Below the pieces are notes generated by a model. It was not told the DNA's origin and ran no database searches. It saw nothing but the letters and a program-made list of their open reading frames with translations. The position numbers were made by a program, and so were the translations under genes. DNA of 64,000 bases, taken from the NCBI RefSeq assembly GCF_010119975.1, contig NZ_CP048222.1, positions 5,866,501 through 5,930,500 of the forward strand, written 5' to 3'. Each line of letters begins with the position of its first letter. Positions within the stretch are counted from its first letter, which is position 1. Positions 53,199 to 64,000 of this stretch are shown here, one piece after another. Source of the stretch: Rhodocytophaga rosea. Its GTDB lineage: Bacteria; Bacteroidota; Bacteroidia; Cytophagales; 172606-1.

Positions 53199-53570
53199 TT
53201 AAGTATAGTTAAGTTTATGCATGAGTAGTAAAATAGAGTAATGTAACATAAGCCAAGACTTAGAATAGCATAAGGTATTCCTTTTCAAACGGGCTAAGCC
53301 ATGTCTCAACCGGGTGTTATAGCCTTCCACCGTATAAGTTTCCTTTTTAGATTGCCTGAGTTGATGGGAAGGAATCATTTGTGGATATACTTTCCAATGA
53401 TCACTCATCACCCACCTAATGGTTTTCTCTTGCACACTCTCCCAAAGCAACTTGCCAGTCGAGTAGCCTCTTGTACCCAAAACAAAGTCTATAAACCGGT
53501 GCCCATATCTGTCAACGGCTATCCAAACCCAACAGTAGTTTTTTATGGCCAATGTAGGTATGCAACTCAT
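53199..53570 (-). CDS. IS1 transposase catalytic part (InsB-like)
   Basis: About 123 residues as a separate frame; in the family it is joined to InsA by frameshifting. NYCWVWIAVDRYGHRFIDFV, LGTRGYSTGKLLWESVQEK, WVMSDHWKVYPQMIP (second Asp) and ETYTVEGYNTRLRHGLARLKR (Glu and the R-H/LARL signature) are typical. The join should fall at the A6 run in GHKK; here InsB lies +1 (not -1) relative to InsA. Confidence 0.9.
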   Translation of the reverse strand: MSCIPTLAIKNYCWVWIAVDRYGHRFIDFVLGTRGYSTGKLLWESVQEKTIRWVMSDHWKVYPQMIPSHQLRQSKKETYTVEGYNTRLRHGLARLKRNTLCYSKSWLMLHYSILLLMHKLNYT

Positions 53571-53865
53571 CCATTTCTACTACATCAATTGCTGAAGGGC
53601 TTTCTAACGCAGGCGTTTGTTGTCCAAAAGCTCGAATCCAACGATAGACACTCACATGACTTACCTGTAAGTGACGGCCGATTGCTCTCAAACCCATTCC
53701 TTCTAAATATAAGTGTAAAGCTTCTTGTTTGACATCTACACGAAAGGCACTTGATTTAAGGCTAACTGTGAAATGATACCCACACTTTTTACATACATAG
53801 CGTTGCCGACCATGGACAAAGCCACTTTTAGGGCAATTTTTATTGTCACATTTGATACAGTCCAT
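53512..53865 (-). CDS. IS1 InsA-like protein with zinc ribbon
   Basis: About 117 residues from the ATG at 53865 (MDCIKCDNKNCPKSGFVHGR); an upstream start at 53913 lies in the inverted repeat. Zinc-ribbon cysteines C-x2-C...C-x2-C (CIKC, CKKC), helix-turn-helix MGLRAIGRHLQVSHVSVYRWIRAFG, then the first catalytic Asp in VVEMDELHTYIGHKK. The frame ends soon after, at 53512, overlapping InsB. Confidence 0.9.
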   Translation of the reverse strand: MDCIKCDNKNCPKSGFVHGRQRYVCKKCGYHFTVSLKSSAFRVDVKQEALHLYLEGMGLRAIGRHLQVSHVSVYRWIRAFGQQTPALESPSAIDVVEMDELHTYIGHKKLLLGLDSR

Positions 53866-54089
53866 AAAGTAGTTTATCCTTGATCCTGCATATATATCTT
53901 TAGGTAACAACACCTAAAATGGTTTTGCTTAAAAAGCGGTTTAATTTCTTCTTTAATTATCTTTTCTTCTAACTCTTTAGCATTCATGATTCTTATGTGA
54001 CTGATTGATATAATATTTAGTGGTTCAAATTGAATTTATAAATTTAAAGCAATCAATAATTATTGATTAGTAAATTAACCGGCGTTTGT

Positions 54090-56080: not shown

Positions 56081-58228
56081 TTATTCCATTAATTTCTTAA
56101 GGATTTGCTGGGCAGCTACAGAAATAATGGTTCCAGGACCGAAAATACCTGCTACGCCTGCTTTGTATAGGAAATCATAATCACCCGGAGGAATCACTCC
56201 GCCCACAATTACCATAATATCTGGCCTGCCTATTTTCTTTAGTTCTTCTATAAGTTGGGGAATCAAGGTTTTGTGGCCGGCTGCCAGGCTGGAAGCACCC
56301 ACCATATGCACATCGTTTTCGGCAGCTTGCCTGGCTACTTCTTCCGGTGTCTGGAATAAAGGACCAATGTCTACATCGAAGCCTAGGTCAGCAAAGCTAG
56401 TCGCTATTATTTTAGCTCCTCTGTCATGGCCATCTTGTCCCATTTTAGCGATCATAATCCGGGGTCTTCGCCCTTCCATGGCAGCAAACTGATTGGTCAT
56501 TTCACGGGCTGTGCGGAAGTTTTCATCATCGGGTACCTCAGCCGCATACACACCAGAAATAGCACGGATCACTGCCCTATGCCTGCCAAATACTTTTTCC
56601 ATGGCAAAAGATATTTCACCCAAGGTAGCCCGTTGTCGGGCTGCATTCACCGCTAACGCCAATAGATTACACCCCCCAGCCCCTCTTGTTAGTGGGGAAT
56701 CTTGTTGTGCACATTGGGTAATGGCATCGAGTGCTTCTTGTAGGGCATCTTGGTTACGATCTCTTTTTACTTTTTCCAGTCTGGCAATCTGCGAATTTCT
56801 GACAGCGGCGTTGTCCACTTCTAATAGTTCAATATCCGTATTTTCAGAAACAGTATATTTATTTACCCCGACAATTACATCCTTTCCAGAATCAATTCTG
56901 GCTTGTTTTCTGGCGGCGGCTTCTTCAATACGCATTTTAGGAAGGCCGGTTTCTATGGCTTTGGTCATACCGCCGAGTTGCTCTACTTCTTCAATGAGTT
57001 TCCAGGCTTTTTGTGCCAGCTGGTGGGTCAGGTATTCTACATAATAGGAACCGCCCCATGGATCTACTACTTTGGTTACATTTGTTTCTTTAGCAATCAA
57101 CAGTTGCGTATTTCTGGCGATACGGGCCGAAAAATCGGTAGGCAAAGCAATAGCTTCATCTAGAGAATTGGTATGCAGAGATTGTGTACCACCCATTACA
57201 GCGGCAAGGGCTTCGATGCAGGTGCGGGTTACATTATTAAATGGATCTTGAGCGGTTAAACTCCAGCCCGAAGTCTGGCAATGGGTACGGAGGGCAAGCG
57301 ATTTGGTATTTTTAGGATTAAAGGTTTTTACCATCTTCGCCCAAAGCATTCGGGCGGCCCGCATTTTGGCAATCTCCATAAAATGATTCATGCCAATAGC
57401 CCAGAAAAAAGAGAGCCTGGGCGCAAAATCATCTATTGGGATTCCGGCTGCAATTCCAGTCCGGATATATTCCAGACCATCAGCCAAAGTATACGCCAGT
57501 TCCAGGTCGGCAGTAGCACCGGCTTCCTGCATATGATAGCCGCTGATACTGATGGAGTTGAATTTGGGCATATAACGGGAAGTATAAGCAAAAATATCAG
57601 CCACAATTCGCATGGAAGGTTCGGGTGGATAAATATAGGTATTACGCACCATAAATTCTTTCAGAATATCATTTTGAATCGTGCCACTCAGCTGTTCCGG
57701 GGTAACGCCTTGTTCTTCTGCAGCTATAATATAAAAAGCCATAATCGGAAGTACGGCTCCGTTCATGGTCATCGAAACCGACATTTCATTAAGTGGAATG
57801 CCATCAAAGAGAATTTTCATGTCTTCTACAGAATCTATAGCCACTCCGGCTTTTCCCACATCACCGGTCACCCTCGGATGATCCGAATCATAGCCCCTGT
57901 GCGTAGCAAGATCGAAAGCAACAGATAGACCTTTTTGTCCGGCAGCCAGATTGCGGCGGTAAAATGCATTAGATTCTTCGGCCGTAGAAAAACCGGCATA
58001 CTGGCGGATAGTCCAGGGCTGGGTGACATACATCGAAGCATAGGGTCCCCGCAGAAAAGGCGGCAACCCAGCCCCAAAATCCAGGTGTTCAAAATCAGCT
58101 ATATCCTGAGCTGTATACGTTTTCTTTACCGGAATTCCTTCAGCCGTGAGCCAGTCTTTCGATTTGGCAGGTGTTGATATGGCTTGTGCCTTAAACTCAG
58201 GTTTTATATGTAAAAAATCTGGTTTCAT
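56081..58228 (-). CDS. mutB: methylmalonyl-CoA mutase, large (cobalamin-binding) subunit
   Basis: 715 residues. Interconverts succinyl-CoA and (R)-methylmalonyl-CoA with adenosylcobalamin. The barrel shows [64 protein letters not shown]-type sequence, [16 protein letters not shown] and [23 protein letters not shown]. The B12 domain has [39 protein letters not shown] with the D-x-H-x-x-G motif. Near residues 507-520, where other mutases have a short linker, the sequence reads [16 protein letters not shown]; the DNA there (56669-56704) matches a palindromic repeat, read in frame. mutA lies just upstream. Confidence 0.96.
56669..56704. repeat. C-rich palindromic repeat inserted in mutB
   Basis: ACACCCCCCAGCCCCTC...AGTGGGGAATCT matches the plan of short palindromic repeats scattered in Bacteroidota and cyanobacterial genomes. 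It is read in frame as [10 protein letters not shown] within the linker between the mutase barrel and the B12 domain. Confidence 0.6.
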
Positions 58229-58321: not shown

Positions 58322-59515
58322 TCATTGCGAAGGCAAAATTAGAAAACCAGATTGCCGGGCTTGCAAAAAACCACCTTCCGCTTCTATCTCTGTAAATAAG
58401 CGCCAGGCTTCTGTAGCAATCATATGAGTTAGATTTTCTACGTAATACGAACCACCGGCTATATCAGCCACCTGGGCAAAATAACTCTCTTCTTTCAAGA
58501 TAATAGACACATTCCGGCTTATCCGCCTGGAAATAACATCATCTGTTTTTCCATTAAAAGGTAATACACGTAGCGACTGGCAACCTCCCAGTACAGCAGA
58601 CATGGCGGCCAGTGAAGAACGGATCAGGTTATTATAAGGATCTTCTGCCGGAGTATGTGAAAACTCAATAGGTGTATGAATAAAAAGTTTATGATTCGTT
58701 ACCTGATAAGCCGCTGCCAGCTGTGTATATAACAAGCGCAAAGCCATTAACTTGGCCATTTCCATAAAAAAGTTAGTGCCTACACTCACAGAGAAAATCG
58801 TTTTATTGAAAATAGCAGCTGCCTGAACACCTCGTTCCGTAAGCTGATGGGCATATTCTACAAAGGCAGACAGCAAGTATGCAATCTCCCGAGTAGTGGA
58901 ATTACCAGGATTGCTATTCACGGTAAGCGGATAAAATTCTGGAAAATCGTTTGTCTGCCTGAAAACTTCTGCCAGACTGTCTATGTCTGAAACTGAAGCA
59001 CTTTGTTGCATGAGCGGATCGTAATGCAGACCTCCTTTCCACTGGTAAGGAGCAATGATTTGAAGCTGCTGAAGAAAGCTGCCTGGTGATTTGTTTACTA
59101 TAAAACGGACAGGTGCATCAGAAAGCTTAATCCCTTGCAGCAAAACCGGTAAGTTGACTGTAGCAAGATTCACCGCAGAAAGGTCAAAACACAATGCATC
59201 CGCACCTTGTTGTAAGGCTTCCCTGCCTAGTTGATTGGAAGATTTTTCGGTTAAAAAAGGAATAAATTCCTCAGTAAGCCAGCCTACCTGTGAAGCAGGC
59301 ACGACAGGTAAGGGAATTGTTTGTATATCTTCTCTGGTGTAAAATGGCGCAGTTGTGATCTCAGGTTCAGGTTTCCATATCATTTTCTGTTCATACAAGG
59401 CCTGTTTTTCTTCCAGCGTAGCCGCTTTTAAGTCATGCAGGATTTGTTTTCTCCAGGCTTCCTGAGTGGCTGGTTCAAAGGCTGAAAATAATTTTGTTTG
59501 TTTCCCGAGAGTCAT
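58322..59515 (-). CDS. mutA: methylmalonyl-CoA mutase, small subunit
   Basis: 397 residues from the ATG at 59515 (MTLGKQTKLFSAFEPATQEAW). Typical blocks are KLFSAFEPATQEAWRKQILHDLK, VNSNPGNSTTREIAYLLSAFVEYAHQLTERG, SVSVGTNFFMEMAKLMALRLL and AMSAVLGGCQSLRVLPFNG. It ends shortly after FTEIEAEGGFLQARQSG, so the C-terminal cobalamin-like domain of longer MutA proteins is missing; similar short beta subunits are known in Bacteroidota. It forms a heterodimer with MutB, which starts 93 nt downstream of its stop. Confidence 0.92.
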   Translation of the reverse strand: MTLGKQTKLFSAFEPATQEAWRKQILHDLKAATLEEKQALYEQKMIWKPEPEITTAPFYTREDIQTIPLPVVPASQVGWLTEEFIPFLTEKSSNQLGREALQQGADALCFDLSAVNLATVNLPVLLQGIKLSDAPVRFIVNKSPGSFLQQLQIIAPYQWKGGLHYDPLMQQSASVSDIDSLAEVFRQTNDFPEFYPLTVNSNPGNSTTREIAYLLSAFVEYAHQLTERGVQAAAIFNKTIFSVSVGTNFFMEMAKLMALRLLYTQLAAAYQVTNHKLFIHTPIEFSHTPAEDPYNNLIRSSLAAMSAVLGGCQSLRVLPFNGKTDDVISRRISRNVSIILKEESYFAQVADIAGGSYYVENLTHMIATEAWRLFTEIEAEGGFLQARQSGFLILPSQ

Positions 59516-59622
59516 AGGCGGCATGTATAATTGAGGGACTGAAAGATATATTAAACTTTTATAACCAGCTGTACTCATCCCTCAAAATGAATGTTGAATA
59601 CATAGGTTATGGTATTAAAATG

Positions 59623-59630
59623 TATATTTG
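59623..59630 (+). promoter_or_regulatory. candidate -7 box of the surface-sugar operon
   Basis: TATATTTG fits TAnnTTTG, 20 nt before the first ATG of the operon. No clear -33 TTG. Confidence 0.4.
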
Positions 59631-59650
59631 CGACTTAATTTAAAAAGCAC

Positions 59651-60532
59651 ATGTTCAACTTTAAATATAAGCAACCAAAAATAATTGCTGAAATCGGTTG
59701 CAATCACATGGGCCAGTTTGATATAGCTTTAGAATTAGTCAAATTAGCCAAGGAGTGCGGAGCAAACGTAGCTAAATTTCAGAAAAGAAACCCACAGGAA
59801 TTGCTTACCGAAGAGCAGTATGCGGCACCACACCCTAATCCTTATCATGCATATGGCCCTACCTACGGAGCACATCGCGAATTTCTGGAATTCACCCAGG
59901 AACAACATGCAGACCTGAAAAAATATGCAGAAGGAATTGGAATCAAATATTCAACTTCCGTATGGGATGTTACATCAGCTGTCGAAATTATTGCATTAAA
60001 TCCTGAATTGATTAAAGTGCCTTCTGCCTGTAACAATCATTATGAAATGCTCAGGTTATTACGGGATACATATAGTGGAGAAATCCATATCTCTTTTGGA
60101 ATGACTACCCATGAAGAAGAGGAAGAAGTAATCCGGTTTTTTGAAGAAACCGGGCAGGCAAAAGAACGGCTGGTGGTTTATTCATGTACCTCTGGTTATC
60201 CTGTACAATTTAAAGACGTTTGCTTACTGGAGATAAAGCGGCTACATGATGTGTTTGGTGATCGTGTAAAGACAATTGGTTTCTCAGGCCATCATCTTGG
60301 AATTAGCATAGATATTGCCGCCTTTACCTTAGGAGCTGAATGGATAGAAAGGCATTTCACAAAAGACCGCACATGGAGGGGAACAGACCATGCAGCTTCT
60401 TTGGAGGTTCCGGGCTTACAAAAATTAGCCAGAGATTTACACCATACTCATGAATCTTTAACCTATAAAAATCAGGAAATTTTACCTGTAGAACTGGTTC
60501 AGAGAGATAAATTAAAATACAGGATTAGGTAA
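59651..60532 (+). CDS. neuB: NeuB-family nonulosonate (sialic-acid-like) synthase, without SAF domain
   Basis: 293 residues. PKIIAEIGCNHMGQFDIALELVKLAKECGANVAKFQKRNP is the NeuB/SpsE start, followed by EFLEFTQEQHADLKKYAEGIGIKYSTSVWD, IKVPSACNNHYEMLRLL, ISFGMTTHEEEEEV, YSCTSGYPVQFKDVCL, KTIGFSGHHLGISIDIAAFTLGAEWIERHFTKDRTWRGTDHAASLE. The enzyme condenses phosphoenolpyruvate with a six-carbon sugar or its phosphate. The usual C-terminal SAF (antifreeze-like) domain, which helps bind substrate in NeuB, is absent. First gene of the operon. Confidence 0.9.
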   Translation: MFNFKYKQPKIIAEIGCNHMGQFDIALELVKLAKECGANVAKFQKRNPQELLTEEQYAAPHPNPYHAYGPTYGAHREFLEFTQEQHADLKKYAEGIGIKYSTSVWDVTSAVEIIALNPELIKVPSACNNHYEMLRLLRDTYSGEIHISFGMTTHEEEEEVIRFFEETGQAKERLVVYSCTSGYPVQFKDVCLLEIKRLHDVFGDRVKTIGFSGHHLGISIDIAAFTLGAEWIERHFTKDRTWRGTDHAASLEVPGLQKLARDLHHTHESLTYKNQEILPVELVQRDKLKYRIR

Positions 60533-60546
60533 ATTTTAAAAACATA

Positions 60547-61233
60547 ATGGCTACCATAGCATTTATCCCGGTACGTTGTGGAAGTAAATCTATTCCATTT
60601 AAAAATATTAAAGACTTTTGTGGGAAACCGCTTATATATTGGAACTTGAAAGCATTACAGGATTGTACTAAAGTAGATAAAATATATGTTGCCACTGATT
60701 GTAGCGAAATTGAGCAGGTGGCCAAAAGTTTTGGATTTTCTAAAGTAGAGGTATACAGGCGTCAGGTAGAAAATGCCACGGATACAGCCTCAACAGAAAG
60801 CGTGATGCTGGAGTTTTTAGAATGGAAAGCTGTTCAGTTTCAAGAGGAAGACATATTTATACTGGTACAGGCAACTTCCCCCTTTACAAGTACCCGGGAT
60901 TTTACTGAAGCTTTGCAATTATTTCAGAAGGATGCTTTGGATTCTTTACTCACTTGTGTGCGTACAAAAAGATTTTTCTGGAATAAGGAGGGTACACCCA
61001 TTAATTATGATTACAGGAGCCGCCCACGGAGACAGGATTTTCCGGGTATGCTGATGGAGAATGGCGCTTTTTATGTTAGTACCATTCAGGCCATTATGGT
61101 TTCTAAAAACCGGCTTAGTGGAAAGATAGGTATATATGAAATGTCTGAAGATACAGCTATAGAATTAGATGAAGAATCAGACTGGCTTATAGCTGAACAG
61201 ATCATGAAAGCTAACCGCAGTTATTCTATATGA
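60547..61233 (+). CDS. neuA: CMP-nonulosonate cytidylyltransferase (NeuA-like)
   Basis: 228 residues. IAFIPVRCGSKSIPFKNIKDFCGKPLIYWNLKAL has the R-x-G-S-K nucleotide loop of acylneuraminate/Kdo cytidylyltransferases; VDKIYVATDCSEIEQVAKSFG, TDTASTESVMLEFLEWK and FILVQATSPFTSTRDFTEAL follow, ending IELDEESDWLIAEQIM. It activates the sugar as a CMP ester for transfer. Start 14 nt after neuB; its stop overlaps the next start (ATGA). Confidence 0.9.
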   Translation: MATIAFIPVRCGSKSIPFKNIKDFCGKPLIYWNLKALQDCTKVDKIYVATDCSEIEQVAKSFGFSKVEVYRRQVENATDTASTESVMLEFLEWKAVQFQEEDIFILVQATSPFTSTRDFTEALQLFQKDALDSLLTCVRTKRFFWNKEGTPINYDYRSRPRRQDFPGMLMENGAFYVSTIQAIMVSKNRLSGKIGIYEMSEDTAIELDEESDWLIAEQIMKANRSYSI

Positions 61234-61817
61234 GTGTTTATGGGTTTATTAAAAATATCTACTGGAATATCAGACTATATCCAAATTTAAAAATAGGCTT
61301 AGGTGTTGATTTTGAAAACAAGGGAAATATTGTGGCGAAATCTGCTTTTATAGGCAGTATTCGTAACCGTACCGTGCAGTGGACATATACCGGTAAACGA
61401 AGTGCTTTCCTCAATCATGGTCAGGTATATTTAGGAAAAAACACACGTATCCATAAAGGATTAGGTATTCAGGTGAATGGCGTATTCAGTATGGGGAATA
61501 ATTCTTATATAAATCCTAACTGTATTATTATATGCCAGGAAAAAATCGAAATAGGGAATGAGTGTGCCATCAGCTGGAATTTTACAGCTATGGATACTGA
61601 TCTGCACCATATTACAGGAAGTCCCCTTACGGCACCTATCATTATTGAAGACAATGTGTGGATCGGAGCAAATGTAACAGTACTGAAAGGAGTAAGGATA
61701 GGGAAGGGGGCTGTAATTGCAGCGCAGGCTGTAGTAACAAAGAATGTGCCTCCTCACAGTCTGGTAGCTGGCAATCCTGCAAAACTTATAAGGGAACAAG
61801 TAGAATGGAAAATGTAA
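61230..61817 (+). CDS. left-handed beta-helix (hexapeptide) acyltransferase
   Basis: 195 residues, starting in a 4-nt ATGA overlap with neuA, so translationally coupled. Hexapeptide repeats run from ~35 to 185: SAFIGSIRNRTVQW, VYLGKNTRIHKGLGIQVNG, SMGNNSYINPNCIIICQEK, APIIIEDNVWIGANVTVLKGVRIGKGAVIAAQAVVTKNVPPHSLVAGNPAKLIRE. The catalytic His is likely in TDLHHITG. It resembles WbbJ/maltose-acetyltransferase-like enzymes and may O- or N-acetylate the nonulosonate or another sugar of the polymer. Confidence 0.88.
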   Translation: MSVYGFIKNIYWNIRLYPNLKIGLGVDFENKGNIVAKSAFIGSIRNRTVQWTYTGKRSAFLNHGQVYLGKNTRIHKGLGIQVNGVFSMGNNSYINPNCIIICQEKIEIGNECAISWNFTAMDTDLHHITGSPLTAPIIIEDNVWIGANVTVLKGVRIGKGAVIAAQAVVTKNVPPHSLVAGNPAKLIREQVEWKM

Positions 61818-61824
61818 TAGTATA

Positions 61825-62313
61825 ATGTCAGATAAAGAGTATCAAAACATTAAGTTATTTATGTCTGATGTAGATGGCGTTCTGACAGATGCCGGCATGT
61901 ATTACACAGAAAGTGGTGATGAATTTAAAAAGTTTAATACCCATGATGGGATGGGGTTTCAGCTGTTGAGAGAAAAAGGGATAAAAACAGCAATTATTAC
62001 TTCTGAAAAAACCTTTATTGTAGAGCGGAGAGCAAACAAACTTAAAGTAGATTACTTATACCAGGCATGTAAAAATAAATTGCAGGCTGCTCAAGAAATT
62101 TGTAGTAAGGAAAATATTACGCTTGCAGAAGCAGCCTATATCGGAGATGATATAAATTGTTTGGATCTGTTATCTCATGTGGGTATGGCTGCTTGTCCGG
62201 ATAATGCTGTGGCCAGAATAAAAGCAATTCCGGATATTATCCACCTGAAAAAAAAAGGAGGAGATGGCGCAGTAAGAGAGTTTGTTGAGTTAATTTTGAG
62301 CCAAGGAGTATAA
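61825..62313 (+). CDS. KdsC-like HAD phosphatase
   Basis: 162 residues, the length of KdsC. KLFMSDVDGVLTDAGMYYTESGDEFKKFNTHDGMGFQLLRE contains the HAD nucleophile motif D-V-D-G-V-L-T-D, KTAIITSEKT the second motif and AAYIGDDINCLDLL the third. Family members dephosphorylate Kdo-8-phosphate, or, in Bacteroides, KDN-9-phosphate. In this operon it would remove a phosphate from the NeuB product. No cap domain, so it is a C0 tetramer type. Confidence 0.9.
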   Translation: MSDKEYQNIKLFMSDVDGVLTDAGMYYTESGDEFKKFNTHDGMGFQLLREKGIKTAIITSEKTFIVERRANKLKVDYLYQACKNKLQAAQEICSKENITLAEAAYIGDDINCLDLLSHVGMAACPDNAVARIKAIPDIIHLKKKGGDGAVREFVELILSQGV

Positions 62314-62363
62314 AGTGTGCAGATATATATAATTAAAATATCTGAAAAGCTGTTATTCATTAT

Positions 62364-63359
62364 ATGCAAATTCGTAATTCAGCTGCTGTTGGCTATCATC
62401 AGTCACTCATAGATGTATTGAGAATTGAGTCGGAGGCTATTTTGCAGGCATCCAGGCAACTTAGCCAGGAAGAAACGCAGAAAGCCATTGACCTGATTCT
62501 GGCATGTGAAGGAAAGGTAGTAGTACTGGGCGTAGGTAAATCTGGGATTGTGGCGCATAAGATAGCCGCAACACTGGCCAGTATTGGTACAACAGCGGTA
62601 TATTTACACGCAGCTGATGCCATGCATGGTGATCTGGGAATTATAGATCGTAAGGATATTATTATGGCTGTTAGCAACAGTGGGGAAACGGAAGAAATTA
62701 TTTCTCTGTTGCCTCACCTGAATTTGCGCAAAGTACCTATTATTTCAATCGTAGGAAATATTCAATCTACTCTGGCACAGCAGTCGTACGCCATACTGGA
62801 TGCTTCTATCAGCCGGGAAGCCTGCCCCTTGAATCTGGCTCCAACTACAAGTACAACAGTAGCCTTAGCTGTAGGAGACGCACTGGCAATGACGTTAATG
62901 CAGGTAAAACAGGTAACAGCAGAAGAGTTTGCCATTAATCATCCGGCCGGAAAATTAGGCAGGCGGCTGGCATTACGGGTGAAGAATCTGATGCATTCGG
63001 GAGAAAACAATCCGGTTATTGAGCAACATTCCAGCTGGAAACAGGTAGTGGATGCCATAGACCAGGGTAGGTTAGGAGCCGTAAGTGTGGTAAATAAAGA
63101 AATGCATTTATTGGGCATTATTACCGATGGGGATTTACGTAGGGTGATGCAGCGTACGCCAGTTGAGAAACTTTCAACACTGACTGCAGCAGATATGATG
63201 ACTAAAAAACCGGTAGTAGCTCACCCGAATATGCTCGCTTACGATGCGTTGCAACTGATGGAAAAAAGAAGTTCACAGATTTCAGTATTACCTGTTGTAT
63301 TGGCCTCAAACCAGGTAACAGGCCTGATCCGGATACATGATATTATCGGGAAATTGTGA
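62364..63359 (+). CDS. kpsF: KpsF/GutQ-type sugar-phosphate isomerase (SIS + CBS pair)
   Basis: 331 residues. SIS domain (~40-180): GKVVVLGVGKSGIVAHKIAATLASIGTTAVYLHAADAMHGDLGIIDRKDIIMAVSNSGETEEII, then APTTSTTVALAVGDALA. Two CBS motifs (~210-330), ITDGDLRRVMQRTP and ISVLPVVLASNQVTGLIRIHDIIGKL. KpsF interconverts ribulose-5-phosphate and arabinose-5-phosphate, the Kdo precursor. Its place in the operon may mean the sugar is Kdo-like, or that Kdo for the lipid anchor is made here too. 50 nt after the phosphatase. Confidence 0.93.
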   Translation: MQIRNSAAVGYHQSLIDVLRIESEAILQASRQLSQEETQKAIDLILACEGKVVVLGVGKSGIVAHKIAATLASIGTTAVYLHAADAMHGDLGIIDRKDIIMAVSNSGETEEIISLLPHLNLRKVPIISIVGNIQSTLAQQSYAILDASISREACPLNLAPTTSTTVALAVGDALAMTLMQVKQVTAEEFAINHPAGKLGRRLALRVKNLMHSGENNPVIEQHSSWKQVVDAIDQGRLGAVSVVNKEMHLLGIITDGDLRRVMQRTPVEKLSTLTAADMMTKKPVVAHPNMLAYDALQLMEKRSSQISVLPVVLASNQVTGLIRIHDIIGKL

Positions 63360-63427
63360 GATGCTTACAAAGAATGGATGACAGGTTGTTAAAAAGGAAA
63401 GCTAAGAGATTATAAGACAATTGATGA

Positions 63428-64000
63428 ATGGCCATTGAAACGAGTGAGGCTGAAAAGCCAGTTATACATACACCAAAGGAAGAAGACTGGACCATGGAGA
63501 TCAAATCCAATCCTGGTCTGCTGGATATTAATCTGAAAGAACTATGGCGTTACCGGGATCTGATTACCCTTATTGTCAGGCGGGATTTTGTATCGGCTTA
63601 CAAGCAAACGATACTTGGGCCTGTGTGGCACCTGGCCGAACCAATGGTAACTACCCTTACTTATGCCTTTATTTTTGGTGCCATTGCCAATATATCTACT
63701 GATGGGCTGCCAAGAATTTTGTTTTATCTATCAGGTATTATGCTCTGGACATATTTTTCCAACTGCCTGCTCAATACCTCAGGAACCTTTAATGCCAACG
63801 CAGGAATTTTTGGGAAGGTGTACTTTCCCAGACTGGTAATGCCGATTACCACTACTATTTCGGGTATGATTGCCTGGGGATTGCAATTTATGTTATTTAT
63901 TGTCCTGGTCTTATTTTATTTATATAAAGGAGAAAACATCCATATAAACATCTATGCTTTGCTTACACCACTATTGCTGCTCATGATTGCAGGTACCGGC
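63428..64000 (+). CDS. polysaccharide ABC-2-type exporter permease (Wzm/KpsM-like), 5' part
   Basis: 191 codons from the ATG at 63428 to the edge, no stop. A soluble N-terminus (SEAEKPVIHTPKEEDWTMEI) leads to LDINLKELWRYRDLITLIVRRDFVSAYKQTILGPVWHLAEP, the conserved Wzm/TagG start, then membrane helices VTTLTYAFIFGAIANIS, LPRILFYLSGIMLWTYFSN, GMIAWGLQFMLFIVLVLFY and YALLTPLLLLMIAGTG. It would export the lipid-linked glycan with a Wzt ATPase expected to the right. Confidence 0.92.
   Translation, partial: MAIETSEAEKPVIHTPKEEDWTMEIKSNPGLLDINLKELWRYRDLITLIVRRDFVSAYKQTILGPVWHLAEPMVTTLTYAFIFGAIANISTDGLPRILFYLSGIMLWTYFSNCLLNTSGTFNANAGIFGKVYFPRLVMPITTTISGMIAWGLQFMLFIVLVLFYLYKGENIHINIYALLTPLLLLMIAGTG

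Follow-up and report, generated by a model that had tools for sequence, protein, structure and literature searches.

A gene cluster at the right-hand end of a 64,000-nucleotide stretch of the Rhodocytophaga rosea genome (G000:C1:5866501-5930500, from a single contig of 8,983,451 bases; the whole stretch is referred to here as the window) probably supplies and exports a surface glycan with a nonulosonate of the 2-keto-3-deoxynononic acid (KDN) type, made by a phosphorylated route. KDN is a sialic acid that lacks the customary amino group. The genes in question were as follows (CMP, cytidine monophosphate; ABC, ATP-binding cassette; aa, amino acids).

59651-60532, plus strand: NeuB-family synthase without a SAF domain (293 aa; PF03102, 214 bits against a cut-off of 22.1); proposed KDN-9-phosphate synthase (mannose-6-phosphate plus phosphoenolpyruvate)
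60547-61233, plus strand: CMP-transferase of the NeuA type (228 aa; PF02348, 83 bits); proposed CMP-KDN synthetase
61230-61817, plus strand: hexapeptide acyltransferase with a left-handed beta-helix (195 aa; Hexapep, 48 bits)
61825-62313, plus strand: HAD phosphatase (162 aa; NF058599, 187.5 bits against a cut-off of 180); proposed KDN-9-phosphate phosphatase
62364-63359, plus strand: KpsF/KdsD-type sugar-phosphate isomerase (331 aa; TIGR00393, the KpsF/GutQ family, 282.7 bits against a cut-off of 203.7)
63428-64000, plus strand, cut by the window end: Wzm permease of an ABC polysaccharide exporter (NF050109, a weak match of 35 bits)
L003:837-2102, past the window end and after Wzm: Wzt-type ATPase (PF00005, 82 bits)

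The spacings from NeuB through to Wzm were 14, -4, 7, 50 and 68 bases. The first-pass annotation had given the same order for these six genes, and each was recovered as an open frame in its place, on the plus strand and with a matching family. The Wzm frame (L003:124-819) stopped at the window-equivalent position 64318. Wzt and glycosyltransferases, which the first-pass annotation had suggested looking for to the right of position 64000, were both present; Wzt was followed by methyltransferases, a DegT aminotransferase, a second hexapeptide protein, a KAS III-like protein and Glycos_transf_2 and Glycos_transf_1 proteins, up to L004:2818. A contig scan with a five-sequence NeuB alignment yielded 291 relatives of the window NeuB, and all counts over 80 loci refer to the best 80 of these 291. 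Because NeuB, the CMP-transferase and the phosphatase recurred jointly in most of the 80 loci, in several phyla, the operon arrangement is not explicable by chance.

In the proposed route, every step of which is read from sequence, the SAF-less NeuB would condense mannose-6-phosphate and phosphoenolpyruvate to KDN-9-phosphate, the HAD enzyme would remove the 9-phosphate to give KDN, and the NeuA-type enzyme would convert KDN to CMP-KDN. Downstream glycosyltransferases would add KDN to a chain, the acyltransferase may decorate the KDN-bearing chain, and Wzm-Wzt would export it. KpsF would make arabinose-5-phosphate for the genome's separate 3-deoxy-D-manno-octulosonic acid (Kdo) pathway. A phosphorylated, KDN-like nonulosonate pathway within a surface-sugar operon had been claimed from the first reading of the DNA; support for that claim came from the family and two residues of the phosphatase, from the recurring cassette, from the failure to find NanE in the genome and from the export genes lying beyond the window.

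The HAD enzyme scored above the cut-off of the KDN-9-phosphatase equivalog model (NF058599) and reached 142.9 bits on the KdsC subfamily model (cut-off, 106.95); the genome's other KdsC-like protein, encoded at 1.76 Mb, scored 112.2 bits on the KdsC subfamily model and 87.3 bits on the KDN-9-phosphatase model. The best solved relative of the window phosphatase was 3e81, which we take to be the Bacteroides thetaiotaomicron enzyme BT1714. Residues Glu56 and Lys67 of BT1714 presumably set its specificity; in the printed sequences, 4hgq differed from 3e81 at Glu56 and 4hgr at both Glu56 and Lys67. The window phosphatase carried Glu and Lys at the equivalent positions and retained the DVDG nucleophile motif. 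The same pair was found in all 70 phosphatases of the clade loci (the best match over 120 aa, one per locus, with 10 of the 80 loci giving none) and in 7/7 phosphatases of B. thetaiotaomicron-like loci, which are described below. The genome's own KdsC-like protein had Gly/Phe at these positions, and the pair was missing from all of the only five solved KdsC-like chains with printed alignments, namely, 4hgn (a KDO8P phosphohydrolase; Gly/Ala), 2p9j (Arg/Glu), 7t35 (Arg/Thr), 3n07 (Arg/Ala) and 3i6b (Arg/Thr); a fragment of 3ewi was out of register and was dropped. A DxDG nucleophile motif was present in 50/50 frames joining the phosphatase to the CMP-transferase (40 by a strict pattern, plus 10 others); of the phosphatases encoded separately, 15 of 18 matched the strict pattern. 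We propose that the HAD enzyme is a KDN-9-phosphate phosphatase.

The window NeuB did not reach the cut-off of either the N-acetylneuraminic acid (Neu5Ac) synthase model (TIGR03569, 174.3 versus 399.65 bits) or the pseudaminate synthase model (TIGR03586, 120.7 versus 340.25 bits), and its family alignment stopped before the SAF (antifreeze) region. Its predicted structure (predicted local distance difference test score, 92.6) matched solved NeuB/PseI barrels with Z scores of 31 to 34 and KDO8P synthases with a Z score of about 22. The alignment to the NeuB of Neisseria meningitidis (1xuu; Z score of 33.0, 25% identity) extended to residue 294 of 1xuu, reflecting a common barrel fold; the N. 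meningitidis enzyme differs in that it uses unphosphorylated N-acetylmannosamine (ManNAc) and has a SAF domain, whose Arg314 reportedly positions the N-acetyl group (PMC6795526). Since the window NeuB has no SAF domain, it is also without Arg314, and we infer from this that the SAF-less enzyme would favor mannose-6-phosphate. NeuBs without this domain are not unheard of, since the solved chain of the Leptospira NeuB 6ncs, the top structural match (Z score of 33.8), comprises just 285 to 290 residues, although it is only 27% identical to the window NeuB. Two further synthases were encountered. One (L084:14932-15987), of 351 aa and 39% identical to the window NeuB, bears a SAF domain and the TYG motif described below, lies beside a CMP-transferase and a phosphatase, and is possibly a form between SAF-bearing and SAF-less NeuBs. 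The other, within G000:C1:4898058-4909728, is a second nonulosonate synthase of the R. rosea genome; it exceeded the pseudaminate synthase cut-off (504.8 versus 340.25 bits), and a cytidylyltransferase-like gene lay about 11 kb away.

For the CMP-transferase, the closest solved relatives were PpNeuA (9t4z) and the CMP-Neu5Ac synthetase 1qwj, and the cut-off of the pseudaminate cytidylyltransferase model was missed (TIGR03584, 111 versus 205.7 bits). We propose that this NeuA-type enzyme is a CMP-KDN synthetase. The acyltransferase was WcaF/WbbJ-like, with scores under the curated cut-offs, and possibly O-acetylates KDN or some other glycan sugar.

Of the 80 loci, 68 had a phosphatase and 71 a CMP-transferase in the 6 kb downstream of NeuB, and fusion of the two, seen in 49, was the commonest arrangement. 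Four of the 12 loci without a phosphatase had at most 1.7 kb of downstream sequence, and another, L098, had a fused gene upstream. Judged by record titles, the clade spanned Bacteroidota, Campylobacterota, Pseudomonadota, Planctomycetota, Neomarinimicrobiota and a few others, many records being metagenome bins whose taxonomy is possibly misplaced. In three loci (L053, L058 and L076), which shared a neighborhood, the phosphatase directly followed NeuB and no CMP-transferase was found within 6 kb downstream. A second form of the cassette was seen at L022:10886-15013 and in 12 other loci, with NeuB, CMP-transferase, Gfo/Idh, SDR and phosphatase genes in that order (L022 also had a Gmd-like gene before the phosphatase), and suggests a modified nonulosonate. 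The product in R. rosea might likewise be a modified nonulosonate from the same phosphorylated route, such as a KDN derivative altered at one carbon. L022, which held the nearest NeuB (80%), has its Gfo/Idh, SDR and Gmd-like genes between NeuA and the phosphatase, and the Gfo/Idh-SDR pair occurred in 13/80 loci, with Gfo/Idh alone before the contig end in one more; the window operon, however, had no Gfo/Idh or SDR gene from NeuB to Wzm, and its CMP-transferase was of the commoner type. We regard a modified product as rather unlikely.

A different product, Neu5Ac or another N-acylated nonulosonate, would arise if the enzymes worked as in animals, with ManNAc-6-phosphate and phosphoenolpyruvate giving Neu5Ac-9-phosphate, followed by dephosphorylation. 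The gene set is the same as that of the animal route, the human synthase takes both mannose-6-phosphate and ManNAc-6-phosphate according to PMC7845648, and PMC8053191 states that in bacteria one machinery makes both NeuAc and Kdn. The window operon nonetheless held no NeuC, and NanE was not found in the genome (0/1, with a model that finds NanE in 8/14 controls). NeuC-like genes lay within 4 kb of just 3 of the 80 clade NeuBs, at 24 to 25% identity; within the same distance, a PseH-like gene occurred at one NeuB and PseG and LegB at none. Because these genes, for which the same queries do find partners in control loci, were rare or absent nearby, no dedicated supply of ManNAc or a diamino sugar travels with the cassette, which would fit the drawing of mannose-6-phosphate from central metabolism. 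The missing SAF domain, which would hold the N-acetyl group, and the KDN-type phosphatase also speak against an N-acylated product, which we consider improbable, if marginally less so than a modified KDN.

The first-pass annotation had equated the gene set with the one that makes CMP-KDN in B. thetaiotaomicron. This stood in part, as the two share the phosphatase family, the Glu56/Lys67 pair and the logic of three enzymes (synthase, BT1714 phosphatase and CMP-KDN synthetase). A search of 198 genomes of the class with a stretch of 3e81 gave matches at an E value of 1e-30 in 43 of them, and matches at 50 to 65% identity were separate from those at 36 to 45%, which resembled KdsC. Of ten such regions that were read, eight (L126-L133) held a SAF-bearing NeuB, one (L134) was of the window type, with a NeuB at 66% identity and a fused CMP-transferase-phosphatase, and one (L135) had no NeuB. 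The synthases adjoining the B. thetaiotaomicron-like phosphatases were 344 to 355 aa long, with a SAF region, and belonged to another clade (the B. thetaiotaomicron synthase itself lay outside the comparison), and in 5/8 of these loci a SpsF-like open reading frame (by eye) stood upstream in place of the window-type CMP-transferase. In a tree, 30 clade sequences and the 8 synthases of B. thetaiotaomicron-like loci fell on opposite sides (100/100 in the group table). The tree was flagged because long branches meet in it, and the separateness of the two clades is for that reason trusted more than the branching order. The window NeuB neither had a SAF domain nor belonged to the clade of SAF-bearing synthases found beside these phosphatases. 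An operon of the B. thetaiotaomicron type as such was rejected on the grounds that such phosphatases adjoined SAF-bearing synthases in 8/10 regions read.

One sequence feature was common to the two clades. The motif TYGxH[KR]xxLE was present in 70/79 clade NeuBs and in 8/8 synthases of the B. thetaiotaomicron-like loci. It was absent by pattern search from the PseI of the R. rosea genome and from the NeuB of a same-genus genome (G004), by alignment from the N. meningitidis NeuB, and also from a Marinovum PseI, an Azospirillum SAF-less NeuB and a SAF-less Hymenobacter NeuB near which no phosphatase was found. It was likewise absent from eight long plasmid NeuBs (349 to 359 aa) without such a phosphatase within 3 kb, controls that were picked by hand from 40 listed matches and are not a random sample. 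In a check from which L114, L115, L119, L120 and L125 were left out as having been read on the wrong strand, exceptions appeared in both directions, as detailed below. We treat the motif as a lead for a phosphate site and not as proof of one.

The remaining alternative was that raised by the first-pass annotation on account of KpsF. In a Kdo-like pathway, KpsF would provide arabinose-5-phosphate, NeuB would combine it with phosphoenolpyruvate to give Kdo-8-phosphate, the HAD enzyme would dephosphorylate the product, and NeuA would form CMP-Kdo. KpsF is the next gene in the operon, KDO8P synthases share the barrel of NeuB, and in Escherichia coli kdsD presumably lies beside kdsC. The window NeuB is nevertheless nearer to NeuBs (Z score of 33) than to KDO8P synthases, the HAD enzyme has KDN-type residues, and the operon is not the genome's source of Kdo-8-phosphate synthase and phosphatase, Kdo-type genes being located elsewhere:

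3.70 Mb: KdsA (375 bits, over the cut-off)
3.47 Mb: KdsB candidate (PF02348, 196 bits)
1.76 Mb: KdsC-like gene (the KdsC subfamily match given above)
4.15 Mb: WaaA-like gene (PF04413, 160 bits)

The window KpsF was the sole one found in the genome (next match, 21 bits), and a KpsF at more than 40% identity occurred in just 1 of the 80 loci, L022. In the genome of L022 (G001), KpsF-Wzm-Wzt and KdsA were divergent and the NeuB cassette lay on the far side of KdsA, and in that of L023 (G003), KpsF and KdsA were on one contig about 5.5 kb apart; neither genome is independent of the 80-locus set. G004 had the flanks of the window, its methylmalonyl-CoA mutase genes and KpsF-Wzm-Wzt enclosing a middle (10546-16344 of L111, which is G004:C137:8000-27000) that held a different CMP-transferase-like gene of 356 aa and a NeuB of 498 aa whose tail looked cupin-like by eye. 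Between these flanks nothing matched the window phosphatase, and the G004 genome yielded no NeuB of the window's clade (best match, E value of 1.4e-23). Such a swap at the same genomic place would be like a serotype switch. Because G004 kept the flanks, including KpsF-Wzm-Wzt, around other nonulosonate genes, these genes resemble a module that can be exchanged, with KpsF belonging to the fixed side. KpsF is probably outside the nonulosonate route and serves ordinary Kdo metabolism. A Kdo-like pathway via KpsF, which we consider highly improbable, was rejected on genome content (a single KpsF and separate Kdo-type genes) and synteny, KpsF staying with Wzm-Wzt and not with NeuB, and the suggestion made in the first-pass annotation was thus not supported.

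Besides the single bacterial machinery for NeuAc and Kdn mentioned above, several observations weigh against a KDN product made by this route. The phosphatase cleared its equivalog cut-off by just 7.5 bits, phosphatases of this kind are called functionally redundant in PMC6200933, and 3mmz, a solved HAD protein with no named function, also carries Glu/Lys, so the pair is no proof of KDN. No phosphatase was found in L025, L040, L070, L082, L087, L088 and L092 despite at least 5.6 kb of downstream sequence, and in L084, one of the 68 positive loci, the phosphatase stands beside the second, SAF-bearing NeuB. The Methylomagnum (L139) and Nonomuraea (L143) NeuBs adjoin Glu/Lys phosphatases without having the TYG motif, and a Streptomyces NeuB (L142) has the motif but no such phosphatase was found in the 4 kb around it; exceptions of this kind keep the motif from being a clean marker. 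The L139 and L143 sequences (L139:3941-5453 and L143:3446-4804) showed a loop, TYxxY[KR], in place of the motif, and these two NeuBs perhaps use another substrate. Mannose-6-phosphate isomerase (PF01238) was found in 0/1 for the R. rosea genome, with a model that detects it in just 2/14 controls, a rate too low for the result to be informative. None of the 18 proteins of at least 150 aa scanned after Wzt matched a Pfam sialyltransferase family. Two further results temper the assignment of KpsF to Kdo synthesis. KpsF was under the cut-off of the KdsD arabinose-5-phosphate isomerase equivalog (NF008141, 298.5 versus 505 bits), and its KdsD function is for this reason taken from context. G005 and G006, two relatives listed as 100% complete, had KdsA over the cut-off and no KpsF at an E value of 1e-20; Kdo synthesis in the family is therefore not always KpsF dependent. 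In favor of a KDN product, homologues of the synthase, CMP-transferase and phosphatase lay side by side in Sinorhizobium fredii CCBAU 25509 and NXT3 (records without annotation), and PMC7845648 lists Kdn-glycoconjugates for S. fredii SVQ293; this link between cassette and KDN is one at the species level only.

Other known KDN and sialic acid systems resembled the proposed route in part. Prymnesium parvum has a Kdn-9-phosphate synthase based on mannose-6-phosphate and a CMP-Kdn synthetase, but it is an alga in which, according to PMC6200933, no phosphatase homologue was found, and the likeness is drawn from the published description. The animal NANS/CMAS route also uses phosphorylated substrates and joins the CMP-transferase to a KdsC-like domain (compare 3ewi), as did 49/80 loci; in the window, however, the two are separate genes with the acyltransferase between them, and animal NANS has an antifreeze domain (PMC13214540). 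A bacterial KDN capsule dependent on NeuB is described for Serratia marcescens KL1/KL2, whose NeuB differs in having an extra isomerase/epimerase domain, and the main text of that report mentions no phosphatase (PMC9000132). Among openly licensed papers, we found no publication on the SAF-less NeuB clade or on the CMP-transferase-phosphatase fusions, which does not imply their absence from print.

Upstream of NeuB and divergent from it were the two flanking genes that have counterparts in G004.

58322-59578, minus strand: methylmalonyl-CoA mutase gene (PF01642)
56081-58228, minus strand: second putative methylmalonyl-CoA mutase gene (from the frame list)

Positions 59623 to 59630 of the window read TATATTTG, 20 bases 5' of the NeuB start. 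This fits the consensus of the Bacteroidota -7 box; by eye, no good -33 element was present at the usual distance. Two short overlapping frames on the minus strand at 53199-53913, also seen by eye, presumably represent an IS1-type transposase pair. Just right of the polysaccharide cluster, L004:3018-5969 encoded a predicted 983-aa protein that, by eye, begins with four near-identical repeats, each about 100 aa long.

On balance we lean towards the view that the SAF-less NeuBs of this clade are KDN-9-phosphate synthases in a class of their own, that this class is widespread, and that its members pair with a KDN-type phosphatase, in most cases one fused to the CMP-transferase. So far KDN has been listed for a handful of bacteria; the introduction of PMC7845648 names four strains, and KDN is said there to resist most bacterial and viral sialidases. 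The KpsF case indicates how a Kdo gene bordering an exchangeable sugar module can mislead annotation. The cassette of SAF-less NeuB, CMP-transferase and Glu/Lys phosphatase would test how a NeuB that lacks the N-acetyl-holding domain picks its substrate, and it would allow genome-based prediction of KDN producers. If the proposed class is real, KDN would be common as a surface sugar in Bacteroidota, Campylobacterota and other bacteria, and predictable from the cassette alone.

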